From Desulfoplanes formicivorans (GTDB lineage Bacteria; Desulfobacterota; Desulfovibrionia; Desulfovibrionales; Desulfomicrobiaceae): a stretch of DNA of 64,000 nt. The notes under the pieces were generated by a model, which saw nothing but the letters and a program-made list of their open reading frames with translations, was not told the DNA's origin and did not search any database. Of this stretch, positions 51,313-55,530 are shown piece after piece. The position numbers and the translations under genes were made by a program. The stretch spans positions 1-64,000 of the forward strand of contig NZ_BDFE01000015.1 of assembly GCF_001748225.1 (NCBI RefSeq), written 5' to 3'. The stretch's first letter is position 1, and each line of letters opens with the position of its first letter.

Positions 51313-51332
51313 CAACCATTCGTTTCAGTCAT

Positions 51333-51367
51333 AAAAAGCCGGAAACAGAACCTGTTTTCGGCTTTTT
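51333..51367 (+). terminator. Terminator after purSL
   Basis: aaaaagccggaaacag pairs with ctgttttcggcttttt (51352-51367) over 16 bp with one G-T pair around a 3-base loop. It starts 20 nt after the stop. Confidence 0.9.
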
Positions 51368-51419
51368 GTTTGGTCTTGCTCCCCCCAAGGAGGGACACGG
51401 TCATGCCCGACTCAGCCTG

Positions 51420-51511: not shown

Positions 51512-52420
51512 ATGAAACATTGCTTGACCTTTGCTGCCGGACTTTTGGCGCTGCTTTTTCTGACAGCAGGCACGGTCCAGGCCGACGGGCACAAGGTCCT
51601 GACCATGTCCACCACCACCAGCACCCAGGCTTCCGGACTTCTGGACGTGCTCCTGCCCGCCCTTGAAAAGGATACCGGCATCCAGATCAAGGTCATTGCC
51701 AAGGGAACCGGCGCGGCCATTCGCGACGGCATGGATGGCAATGTGGACGTCATCTTTGTACACGCCAAATCCCGCGAAGAGGCCTTTGTCAGCGATGGCT
51801 ACGGCACCAAGCGGTATCCCGTGATGCACAATGACTTCATCATTCTCGGCCCGGCCGCTGATCCCGCAGGCATCGCCGGCATGAAAGACGCTGCAGCAGC
51901 CATGAAAAAGATCGCCCTGTCCCGTTCCAAATTCGTATCTCGCGGTGATGACAGCGGCACCCACACCAAAGAACAGTCCTTGTGGAAGGCCACGGGCCTG
52001 CCTCAGGAAAAGGTGCTCAAGTCCATCTTCAAAAAGGGCAAGAAAACCATGGTCACCTTTTCGCATCCCAAGGGTCTGGGTGACTGGTATCTGTCCATAG
52101 GTCAGGGCATGGGCAAGTCGCTGACCTATGCCGAGGAAAAACAGGCCTACATCCTGGCCGACAGGGGAACCTATCTGAAGTACAAACTCGGCCGCAATCA
52201 GGGTCTTGACCTGAACATTCTGGTGGAAGGCGATCCCCTGCTGTACAATCCCTACGGGGTCATTCCGGTCAATCCGGCCAAGCACCCCCACGTCAAGGTC
52301 GACCTGGCAACCACCTTTGCCGAGTGGATCACCTCCCACAAGGGACAGGCCCTTATCGCCAATTACAAACTCCTCGGGGAACAGCTCTTCTACCCCGACG
52401 CCATTCCTGACGCACGATAA
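51512..52420 (+). CDS. tupA: Tungstate ABC transporter substrate-binding protein
   Basis: ATG 51512 follows acgaggaggga. The 302-residue protein begins with a signal peptide (MKHCLTFAAGLLALLFLTAGTVQA) and continues TMSTTTSTQASGLLDVLLPAL, the TupA-specific TTTS oxyanion motif. AKGTGAAIRDGMDGNVDVIFVHAK, FVSRGDDSGTHTKEQSLW and GRNQGLDLNILVEGDPLLYNPYG are further family signatures. It binds tungstate (or molybdate) in the periplasm. The permease and ATPase genes follow in the same direction. TupA prefers tungstate; some relatives bind both. Confidence 0.92.
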   Translation: MKHCLTFAAGLLALLFLTAGTVQADGHKVLTMSTTTSTQASGLLDVLLPALEKDTGIQIKVIAKGTGAAIRDGMDGNVDVIFVHAKSREEAFVSDGYGTKRYPVMHNDFIILGPAADPAGIAGMKDAAAAMKKIALSRSKFVSRGDDSGTHTKEQSLWKATGLPQEKVLKSIFKKGKKTMVTFSHPKGLGDWYLSIGQGMGKSLTYAEEKQAYILADRGTYLKYKLGRNQGLDLNILVEGDPLLYNPYGVIPVNPAKHPHVKVDLATTFAEWITSHKGQALIANYKLLGEQLFYPDAIPDAR

Positions 52421-52546
52421 CCATGAACAGGCAGGCCGGGAACAACGCCCCGGTCTGCCTCATGACTCCAACGGTATACATGCGGCCCGTTGTCCAGGCC
52501 TCATAGCGCCTCCTCACTGCACACTCACCCTCAACCGGGTGTCCCC

Positions 52547-53242
52547 ATGAATTTCTTCACCGACAGTCTCCTTTCCGCCCTGACCCTGATGCGGGATTTC
52601 GACCCCGAGCTGGTCGAAATCGTAGGGGTATCCCTCAAGGTCAGTCTTTCCTCGACCCTGCTGGCCGCCTGCCTTGGCATCCCCCTGGGCTTTGCCGTGG
52701 GCATCAGGGAGTTCCCTGGTAAACGAACCGTGGTCACCCTGCTCAACACCCTGCTGGCCCTGCCCACCGTGGTCATCGCCCTGTTCGTGTACTCGTTCAT
52801 TTCCAGGCGGGGCATCCTTGGAGCCTTGGATCTGCTTTACACTCCCAAGGCGATCATCATCGGCCAGGTTCTGCTCATTCTCCCGGTTGTGGCCACCTTC
52901 ACCCTGTCGGCCATCAGCCGCATTGATGCCAGGTATCGCCAAACAGCCATGACCTTGGGAGCAACACGATTTCAAACAGCCCTGGTCATCCTGCGTGAGG
53001 CCCGCTTCGGCATCATGGCCGCTGTGGTGGCGGCCTTTGGGCGGGTTATCTCGGAAATCGGAATCAGCATGATGCTGGGCGGCAATGCCAGAGGGTTCAC
53101 CAGAACCATGACCACGGCCATGGCCCTGGAATATGACAAGGGCGAATTCGTCCTGGCTGTGGCCCTGGGGTTGGTGCTCATGTCCATCAGTCTTCTGGTC
53201 AACGTCATCCTGAATCTTTTCCAAGGCCGGGGGAGGAACTGA
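52547..53242 (+). CDS. tupB: Tungstate ABC transporter permease
   Basis: ATG 52547 (MNFFTDSLLSALTLMRDFDPELVEIV) is chosen over the earlier 52490. About 231 residues with five or six helices. The permease-ATPase contact loop is QTAMTLGATRFQTALVILREARFGIMAAVVAAFGRVISEIG, with the EAA-type motif of oxyanion importers. It is followed at once by tupC, whose ATG shares the last base of this gene's stop codon. Confidence 0.92.
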   Translation: MNFFTDSLLSALTLMRDFDPELVEIVGVSLKVSLSSTLLAACLGIPLGFAVGIREFPGKRTVVTLLNTLLALPTVVIALFVYSFISRRGILGALDLLYTPKAIIIGQVLLILPVVATFTLSAISRIDARYRQTAMTLGATRFQTALVILREARFGIMAAVVAAFGRVISEIGISMMLGGNARGFTRTMTTAMALEYDKGEFVLAVALGLVLMSISLLVNVILNLFQGRGRN

Positions 53243-54258
53243 TGCTCTATGCAGCGCGCAATCTGCGCAAGACCTATGGTGAACGGACCGTCCTTGACAT
53301 CGACGAGCTGCACATCCAGGCAGGAAACATCTACGGGCTCCTCGGTCCCAACGGTTCGGGCAAATCCACCCTGCTTTCCCTGCTCGCCTTTCTGGACACC
53401 CCGTCAAGCGGCAACCTCTGGTACCGGGGCAACCTGGTGCGCTCACATCCCAACGAACTGCTTGCCCTGCGCCGGGAAGTCATCCTGGTTGACCAGCACC
53501 CCATCCTGTTCAGTACATCGGTTTTCAAAAATGTGGAATTCGGCCTCAAGGTCAGAGGCATACCCGCCCGGCAACGCAAGCGCATTGTGGAGGAAAGCCT
53601 TGATCTCGTGGGCATGCGCGCCTTCATCCACGAGCGAAGTCACCACCTTTCAGGAGGAGAAACCCAACGGCTGGCCATTGCCCGGGCCCTTGCCTGCTCC
53701 CCCAGGGTTCTTTTGTTCGACGAACCAACAGCCAGTGTGGACGTGGAAAACCAGATCGCCATTGAAAATATCATCCATGAGGTACACCAGGAAAAAAACA
53801 TGTCCATCATCCTGTGCACCCACGACATGCTGCAGGTTTCCAGGCTGGCCCAGGAAACCATCTTTCTCTTTGACGGCCGCAGGAGCGCTTCGACTCACGA
53901 AAACATTTTCAGCGCCCAGGTCTATGAACAGGATGGCATGCCTCTTGCCAAGCTGACCGACCAGATTGCCGTTCCCCTTGCAAGCAGCGTCCAGGGCAAG
54001 ATCAAGCTGGCCATAGCCCCCCAGTCCATCAAACTCTTTCCAGTTACAGCCCAGGCCGGTAAACCCCAAAGGATAACGGGCACGGTCATGCAGCTTACCC
54101 GCGAAGGAAGGCACATCCGCGCCCTTGTGGACATGGGCGTTCCCCTAAGCGTGCGCATTCCCCTTCGCGAGTTCACCTCCCTGAGCATTTGCGTGGGCGA
54201 CAGGGTTCTGGTGGACTGTCCCGCCCACGGCGTGAGCATCCTGAGCCGGGATGGCTGA
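53242..54258 (+). CDS. tupC: Tungstate ABC transporter ATP-binding protein
   Basis: A 338-residue ATPase. Walker A GPNGSGKSTLLSLL (about 35-42), ABC signature HHLSGGETQRLAIARAL, Walker B VLLFDEPTASVD and the switch His in CTHDML are all present. A C-terminal part (about 255-338) resembles a TOBE/MOP-like domain (GKIKLAIAPQSIKLFPV.., GTVMQLTREGRHIRALVDMG), which in related proteins binds oxyanions. It overlaps tupB by one base and ends the transporter set. Confidence 0.92.
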   Translation: MLYAARNLRKTYGERTVLDIDELHIQAGNIYGLLGPNGSGKSTLLSLLAFLDTPSSGNLWYRGNLVRSHPNELLALRREVILVDQHPILFSTSVFKNVEFGLKVRGIPARQRKRIVEESLDLVGMRAFIHERSHHLSGGETQRLAIARALACSPRVLLFDEPTASVDVENQIAIENIIHEVHQEKNMSIILCTHDMLQVSRLAQETIFLFDGRRSASTHENIFSAQVYEQDGMPLAKLTDQIAVPLASSVQGKIKLAIAPQSIKLFPVTAQAGKPQRITGTVMQLTREGRHIRALVDMGVPLSVRIPLREFTSLSICVGDRVLVDCPAHGVSILSRDG

Positions 54259-54401
54259 TCCAAAGGTTCCCGTTCACTGGTCACTGCAACCGCCAAAACG
54301 TCCGGGAATCGACTCGTTATCATGCAAGACCTTCCCTTTGCCGCATTTTGTGCCTATGGAAAACAGAAAGCATGTGGCAAACCCCAAACCAGGAGGTCAT
54401 C

Positions 54402-54614
54402 ATGTCCGGAAAAATTTTCTATCGTTCTCGCAGAAAAACAGGCGAAGGCGAGAAAAAGCCCAGATACCGTGTTGTGGCCGTGGCCGATTGCAATCTGAAA
54501 ATCTATGTTGATCACCTGCGCATGGCCGAACTGGAACACCTTGCCGAAGTCATGAAGGCCGAGCTGATCCCCTTGCGTCTGGGGGAAAAGCATGATGGTC
54601 CTGCAACCGAATAA
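54402..54614 (+). CDS. Small protein between tupC and mosB-like gene, 70 residues
   Basis: ATG 54402 follows ccaggaggtcatc, a very good ribosome site. The product (MSGKIFYRSRRKTGEGEKKP, then RYRVVAVADCNLKIYVDHL) looks like a small alpha/beta protein with basic N-terminus, one Cys and a helical end (MAELEHLAEVMKAELI). I do not recognise it. Its stop is 20 nt from the mosB-like start, so it is likely part of the same unit. Confidence 0.8.
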   Translation: MSGKIFYRSRRKTGEGEKKPRYRVVAVADCNLKIYVDHLRMAELEHLAEVMKAELIPLRLGEKHDGPATE

Positions 54615-54634
54615 AAGCGCATCAAGGAGATTCC

Positions 54635-55465
54635 ATGTCACTTGTACGAGAAAAAGACGGCAAAAGACTGCATGTCAAAAGCAGGCTCATGGGAGAGAGT
54701 CTGGTCAGCAAAAAGTTTCTCGAAACCCTGGAAGTGGCCCCCCAGGAACGACTGTATCCGGACGTCTGCCTCCTGAAGGTCGGCGGCCAGTCCGTGTGTG
54801 ACAGGGGAGCCAAGGCACTGCCCGCCATTGCCCGGGAAATCGCGGACAACCGGAGCAAACACAAGATGCTCATCACAACGGGAGGAGGCACCAGAAGCCG
54901 GCATATCTACACCATCGGTCTGGAGCTGGGCATGCCCACGGGAGTCATTGCCAAGTTCGGAAGCACCATTTCCGACCAGAACGCCCTCATGCTGGCCACC
55001 CTTCTTTCCCCCTGGGGTGGCGTGAAGATCTCCCACAGCGACATTGTCAAACTCCCGGCGTATTTTGCCGAAAACATCATTCCGGTCATGCACGGCATGC
55101 CCCCGTACGACTATTTTGCCATGCGCCCCAAGACCGGACGTATCCCCATCCACCGGACCGATGTAGGTCTTGTTCTCATTGCCGATCTCATCGGTTCCCG
55201 AAACATCATCTTTGTCAAGGATGAAAACGGATTGTATACGGATGATCCCAAGAAGAACCCGAATGCCCGATTCATTCCCAAGATAGGAGCCAAGGAGCTC
55301 ATGGACATGGATCAGGACGATCTGGTCATTGAACGCCCCTGCCTGGACATCATTCAAAACAGTGAAGTCATTGATCAGGTTCAGATCATTAACGGCCTGG
55401 TTCCCGGCAACCTGACCAGGGCACTCAACGGCGAGCACGTGGGAACGATCATCTACCGGCAGTAA
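54635..55465 (+). CDS. Molybdenum/tungsten storage protein homologue (MosB-like)
   Basis: A 276-residue amino-acid-kinase-fold protein. Beyond the general kinase loop (CLLKVGGQSVCDRGAKALP at about 45-63), it matches the Azotobacter molybdenum storage protein beta subunit: TTGGGTRSRHIYTIGLELGMPTG, QNALMLATLLS, VMHGMPPYDYF, RIPIHRTDVGLVLIADL, FVKDENGLYTDDPKKNP and the C-terminal QIINGLVPGNLTRALNGEHVGTII. UMP kinases lack the last motif. MoSto binds ATP and packs polyoxomolybdate or tungstate clusters inside a hexameric cage. It follows the tungstate importer, which supports an oxyanion storage role. Start ATG 54635 follows caaggag. Only one subunit is present, so a homomeric cage or a distant partner is needed. 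Confidence 0.88.
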   Translation: MSLVREKDGKRLHVKSRLMGESLVSKKFLETLEVAPQERLYPDVCLLKVGGQSVCDRGAKALPAIAREIADNRSKHKMLITTGGGTRSRHIYTIGLELGMPTGVIAKFGSTISDQNALMLATLLSPWGGVKISHSDIVKLPAYFAENIIPVMHGMPPYDYFAMRPKTGRIPIHRTDVGLVLIADLIGSRNIIFVKDENGLYTDDPKKNPNARFIPKIGAKELMDMDQDDLVIERPCLDIIQNSEVIDQVQIINGLVPGNLTRALNGEHVGTIIYRQ

Positions 55466-55484: not shown

Positions 55485-55530
55485 CCAACCTAAAAGAGAC
55501 GGCTGTAAACAGCCGTCTCTTTTGGGTTGG
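55485..55530. terminator. Bidirectional terminator between mosB-like gene and der
   Basis: aaaagagacggctgt (55492-55506) pairs perfectly with acagccgtctctttt (55509-55523); the flanks ccaacc and ggttgg extend the stem to about 22 bp. It is shared by two convergent genes. Confidence 0.9.

Follow-up and report, generated by a model that had tools for sequence, protein, structure and literature searches.

A tungstate-importer operon of Desulfoplanes formicivorans carries a single-subunit relative of the molybdenum storage protein and its constant small partner

Introduction

Nitrogen fixers store molybdenum in a hexameric protein cage, the molybdenum storage protein (MoSto), which fills with W/Mo-oxide clusters at the expense of ATP. 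In Azotobacter vinelandii it is encoded by two genes, mosA and mosB. It takes both molybdenum and tungsten (PMC6448029, PMC4504029) and is said to have no known homologues (PMC6448029). A 64,000-nucleotide stretch of the Desulfoplanes formicivorans genome (contig NZ_BDFE01000015.1, positions 1 to 64,000; hereafter the window) contains a five-gene block that a preliminary description had read as a tungstate importer, TupABC, followed by a 70-residue unknown protein and a MosB-like protein with an amino-acid kinase fold. The locus raises the questions of whether the last gene encodes a MoSto relative or a UMP kinase, whether a single subunit is all that is encoded, and what the small protein (P70) and the importer have to do with it.

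Results

Five genes on one strand

ORF calls on the window sequence place tupA, tupB, tupC, P70 and mos in succession at 51512-55465 on the plus strand, exactly as first drawn. The accompanying statement that no terminator lies between them is borne out by a terminator scan, in which the few internal matches are weak, intragenic and rarer than in shuffled sequences. The features of the block are the following.

51331..51369, plus strand: hairpin with T-rich tail 3' of purL (terminator scan, 18 pairs), the upstream operon boundary
51512..52420, plus strand: tupA, putative periplasmic tungstate-binding protein (PDB 5my5 TupA, 242 bits; NF041772, E 1e-69, below cut-off; TTTS and SRGDDSGT motifs)
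52430..52459, plus strand: GC-rich inverted repeat in the tupA-tupB gap, with no T run (read from the sequence; absent from the scan matches)
52547..53242, plus strand: tupB, putative tungstate ABC permease (NF038017 above cut-off; NF041773 TupB, E 2e-56, below cut-off)
53242..54258, plus strand: tupC, ABC ATPase (NF041774 TupC is the top-scoring model, E 5e-47, under its cut-off)
54402..54614, plus strand: P70, 70-residue small basic protein, pI about 9, predicted beta-beta-alpha-beta
54635..55465, plus strand: mos, single-subunit MoSto homologue, amino-acid kinase fold, 276 aa
54668..54712, plus strand: Mos N-terminal arm LHVKSRLMGESLVSK, codons 12-26, MosA-like
55492..55523, plus strand: hairpin with 14-bp stem ending in TTTT, 3' of mos (read directly from the sequence)

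Clear ribosome-binding sites precede tupA (GGAGG), tupC (GGGAGGA), P70 (GGAGG) and mos (AAGGAG). The start of tupC (53242) overlaps the tupB stop, and the start of tupB is itself uncertain, 52547 being likely within a frame that is open from 52490. The inverted repeat between tupA and tupB perhaps stabilises or attenuates the mRNA. Both flanking genes were named from sequence: the one upstream reads as purL, and the one that follows mos, on the opposite strand, reads as the GTPase Der and likely shares the 3' hairpin with mos as a common terminator. The same five-gene order is found in the nearest relative, locus L007 (identities of 84, 91, 69, 67 and 91%), and 79 of the 80 other loci also have P70 next to mos, arguing that the order did not arise by chance.

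TupABC is best read as a tungstate importer. TupA matches the Desulfovibrio alaskensis protein (PDB 5my5) with 242 bits and retains the TTTS, VHA, SRGDxSGT and DRGTY residues that bind tungstate in TupA (PMC5517513). All three proteins fall under the NCBIfam Tup equivalog cut-offs (234.8/400, 191.2/320 and 160.5/400), with Tup models still their best or near-best matches, and "tungstate importer" is therefore not a curated call. Relative to TupABC of D. alaskensis G20, the TTTS and R118-region motifs (Arg118 oxyanion pocket) are kept, whereas the window operon runs on into P70 and mos. TupA (51512-52420) also has about 25 extra residues (about 165-190) compared with solved TupA proteins, which split the PDB match in two.

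Mos resembles MoSto by sequence and predicted fold

Among PDB sequences searched with phmmer, Mos matches MosB with 235 bits and MosA with 162 bits, and UMP kinases with at most 34. The AlphaFold model of Mos (pLDDT 88) returns only MoSto entries as its top Foldseek matches, with TM scores of 0.85-0.88 to MosB compared with about 0.67 to UMP kinase; PDB 6ris, a MosB K42S variant, was among the entries compared. In a phylogeny against MosA, MosB and UMP kinases, PyrH sits on a very long branch away from Mos. Mos thus groups with UMP kinases neither by sequence, nor by tree, nor by fold and, on the strength of these comparisons, is related to MoSto. The original reading, a tungstate importer with a MoSto homologue behind it, is supported. 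In an Azospirillum plasmid (L131:5983-7666), a mosB annotated as "uridine kinase" lies directly 5' of a mosA whose annotation reads molybdenum storage protein subunit alpha; the kinase label is likely a common misannotation.

One subunit per genome, in a clade of its own

Only one MoSto subunit had been noticed in the window, and targeted searches of the host genome (3.0 Mb, 100% complete) agree: among six AA_kinase matches, one is Mos, another is PyrH and none is a second Mos. Exactly one copy is present in 49 of the 50 named genomes with a close Mos, complete genomes included, and in all eight Mos-bearing Synergistota. The exception among the 50, L040, has one copy each of two Mos sub-types; at L040:5670-8736 both types follow tupABC, each with its own P70, in convergent arrangement.

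In the tree, type I and type II Mos (the latter with P70 convergent), which are the single forms, cluster together (SH-aLRT 91.6, bootstrap 94), apart from Azotobacter and Azospirillum MosA and MosB and from the tandem Mos pairs of other Desulfobacterota. The deeper branches of this tree are weakly supported, with PyrH as a very long outgroup; its MosA reference is letter for letter identical to PDB 2ogx chain A. MosB is the closest solved relative. The label "MosB-like" needs correcting: the protein is not simply a MosB that has lost MosA, but belongs to a separate single-subunit clade with a MosA-type arm, found in Desulfobacterota and Synergistota. None of the 16 sampled genomes of the same order has Mos or P70, and the nearest Mos relatives are those of a Desulfoplanes MAG (91%), then of Desulfobulbales and Desulfobacterales at about 80%, which together suggest that Mos was acquired by transfer.

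P70 accompanies the single-subunit form

P70 is the constant partner of single-subunit Mos and is missing beside the two-subunit form. In 79 of 80 loci it precedes mos, usually by no more than 100 bases; L055, the sole locus with no upstream P70, has its start 290 bases from a contig end. Across 395 genomes of the phylum, P70 occurs in 22/22 genomes with a single Mos and 0/4 with a tandem pair (Fisher p 4e-34 for the association with single Mos, uncorrected for phylogeny), and only two genomes, G273 and G167, have P70 with no Mos. Exactly the same eight of 188 Synergistota carry both proteins. A search of the plasmid collection containing Azospirillum MosAB found no P70. With four pair genomes, and Azospirillum checked on plasmids alone, the rule that P70 never occurs with two subunits is a strong trend and not a law. 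The preliminary description, which called the 70-residue protein unknown, overlooked it as the most informative part of the operon.

The protein is basic (median pI 9.6), with invariant M1, R8, P20 and H38, and has a predicted beta-beta-alpha-beta fold (pLDDT 78) for which a search of the PDB gave nothing better than E 1.7; sequence searches of Pfam, NCBIfam, PHROGs and PDB gave nothing consistent. A TOBE molbindin identity was rejected, there being no TOBE (PF03459) match. Distances of P70 and Mos correlate with r 0.54, a value that, with no control, we treated as uninformative.

The two Mos-less genomes place P70 in other company. In G273 (L162:1523-6021, plus strand), a TiaS-like gene and P70 stand ahead of an ECF-type transporter that comprises two ABC domains, CbiQ and a permease, possibly one with an unrecognised substrate. 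In G167 (L165:1720-1965, plus strand), a distant P70 (weak match, 34% identity) stands directly before moaA with a MOSC gene nearby, which links P70 proteins to Mo/W cofactor metabolism even where Mos is absent.

The TiaS-like protein (about 245 residues, with DDTD, SHNS and HGG motifs) also occurs near P70-mos in 38-52 of 80 loci (for example L046:2908-3642 and L012:4707-5450, minus strand), in 20/22 single-Mos and 0/4 paired-Mos genomes. It is absent from the D. formicivorans genome and is a candidate third component.

A MosA-like arm on a MosB-like body

Aligned with MoSto, the N-terminal arm of single Mos (LHVKSxLMGESLVSK) resembles those of MosA (KHVISPLARQTL) and tandem MosA (RKHLPSRLMRESLVSK), with H10/H13 and the arm motif matching both, and an arm of this type is absent from tandem MosB. 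The catalytic body, in turn, aligns with MosB: K48, Q52, M155, K195, D196 and E197 of Mos correspond to K42, Q46, M149, K189, D190 and E191, and are invariant in type I. The MosA arm reportedly closes over the ATP bound in MosB, and Met149 of MosB is said to gate the inward path; if so, one Mos chain, in which a MosA-like arm is joined to a MosB-like ATPase body, carries both functions.

The cluster ligands of MosA have gone. At the positions of the covalent ligands E129, H140 and H156, single Mos has S/G, Y/F and D/G, and the window protein S133, Y143 and D159. E129 and H156 of MosA bind metal clusters (PMC4504029). Type I Mos keeps Y143, D159 and Y160 in 21/21 sequences and H134, which neighbours the lost ligands, in 19/21. 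Such strong conservation suggests that the cage interior may be re-tuned, not idle.

Tungsten or molybdenum

The coupling of Tup genes to mos is not confined to the window operon: they lie beside mos in many Desulfobacterota and Synergistota. Of 80 loci, 30 have TupA, ModA or MOT1 within 4.5 kb of mos, and the number rises to 38 once formate dehydrogenase, FmdE, MoeA-like and PBP-HTH genes are counted as Mo/W genes as well; many of the contigs are short. In many relatives mos adjoins molybdate (Mod, MOT1) and not tungstate transporters, and the neighbours include Moco genes. The host genome has two AFOR_C (tungsten-type AOR) and four Molybdop_Fe4S4 genes; NifH and ModA gave no match above cut-off in it, and no TOBE-domain store was found there.

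Moco riboswitches, all lacking the P3 stem, flank Mos operons of Synergistota and of one further MAG (L059). In L079 and L080 one lies upstream of TiaS-like/P70/Mos and another between Mos and TupA, and in L051 one lies upstream of TiaS-like/Mos/TupABC. The P3-less sites are the following.

L079: 4482-4600, 6851-6972 and 12593-12709
L080: 1634-1749, 3860-3980 and 6892-7009
L051: 5047-5166
Further sites: L059, L044, L075 and L149 (the site in L148 repeats that in L044)

P3-less Moco RNA has been linked to the tungsten cofactor by Regulski et al. (PMC2408646). No riboswitch was detected in the window, and no Moco RNA in 11 Desulfobacterota-type loci. Tungsten is a better guess for the metal than molybdenum or both.

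Discussion

We propose, with a probability of about 0.62, that the operon couples uptake by TupABC to a homomeric, ATP-driven store for tungstate or molybdate with P70 as an obligate small partner. Starting from the computed homology, single copy, operon structure, P70 association, arm-and-body composition and conserved ATPase and gate residues, we infer a hexamer, pumping, storage, the metal and the role of P70. TupABC would import tungstate, and secondarily molybdate, with high affinity. Six identical Mos subunits would form a MoSto-type cage in the cytoplasm, in which the MosB-type ATP site of each subunit would energise the oxyanion and drive it inward past the gate M155 (MosB Met149), while its own MosA-type arm closes over the ATP of a neighbour. 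P70 would be an indispensable accessory, most likely bound to the cage as its lining, as a plug or as a release factor, supplying what the one-subunit cage does not have. The metal would then go into the W/Mo cofactor used by aldehyde oxidoreductases and by enzymes of the formate dehydrogenase type, a destination favoured by the lack of a NifH match in the host genome.

Mos is homologous to MoSto and probably works like it, but departs from it in two defining features: the two subunits and the MosA cluster ligands. The replacement of the covalent MosA ligands E129, H140 and H156 weighs against a plain MoSto label and against our proposal, as do, for the latter, the lack of a known fold relative for P70 and association statistics uncorrected for phylogeny. 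A tentative variant, clearly less probable than the general proposal, is that the homomeric cage is a distinct tungsten store, which P70 enters or caps, supplying cluster ligands as MosA does in Azotobacter. P70 and a second subunit would then answer one need in two different ways, which would explain why the two never co-occurred.

Kept ATP-site and gate residues beside lost cluster ligands would also suit an enzyme that activates the oxyanion, by kinase-like activation of tungstate or molybdate or by delivery for cofactor insertion, with P70 as carrier or delivery partner; the P70 relative directly before moaA and the MoeA-like gene in some neighbourhoods fit such a role. We consider it unlikely, since the invariant or nearly invariant cage-side Y143, D159, Y160 and H134 suggest that the interior still matters and, to our knowledge, metal insertion by MoeA/Mog in other bacteria requires no Mos-like protein. 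A store for molybdate, or for both metals, with TupABC merely a local supplier, has somewhat better prospects while remaining doubtful: some loci have ModA and MOT1 genes beside mos, and MoSto itself takes both metals, but TupABC is found in the window operon and in many relatives, the host has no ModA above cut-off and two AOR genes, and the Synergistota riboswitches are of the tungsten type.

Two further readings concern what Mos is, and we give either very little credence. If Mos were a UMP kinase, or belonged with the other amino-acid kinase family members that act on small molecules, the fold superfamily would be the same, and archaeal pyrH is indeed the best NCBIfam match of Mos; we rejected this identity because that match reaches 65.7 bits against a cut-off of 158, MoSto matches far better by sequence and fold, the genome carries its own PyrH, and Mo/W genes lie in the neighbourhoods. 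That Mos is half of a MosA/MosB pair with its partner gene elsewhere would agree with MosB being its nearest solved relative, but Mos has a MosA-type arm itself, and a missing second subunit was rejected for the present assembly by the genome search and by the one copy in 49/50 genomes.

The proposed store shares with A. vinelandii MoSto the ATP-site Lys, the KDE motif, the GMPPY gate segment, the MosA-type arm and the amino-acid kinase fold, and differs in its P70 partner, the adjoining TupABC, a genome with no NifH above cut-off and a clade and single gene of its own. The literature sets the ATP-dependent cage against Tub/Mop molbindins. Tub of Eubacterium limosum (PMC11980592) is likewise a proposed cytoplasmic W/Mo store and, at about 70 residues, is of P70 size, whereas neither P70 nor Mos has a TOBE match and Mos carries ATP-site residues.

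The preliminary description called the arrangement new for sulfate reducers. Among the papers examined that mention "molybdenum storage protein", we found no case of a one-subunit MoSto with a tungstate importer in these organisms; the arrangement itself is no singularity, given how widely Tup-mos coupling recurs in Desulfobacterota and Synergistota. MoSto, hitherto regarded as all but confined to a nitrogen fixer, now has a one-gene relative spread over both phyla, present in D. formicivorans with no NifH detected in its genome. P70 with every one-gene Mos tested, and with no two-gene Mos, points to a metal store that has escaped notice and is probably linked to tungsten, a candidate tungsten reserve of sulfate reducers and syntrophs. 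The P70 family gains a testable role, and a natural one-subunit version would let MoSto biochemistry separate pumping from cluster templating.
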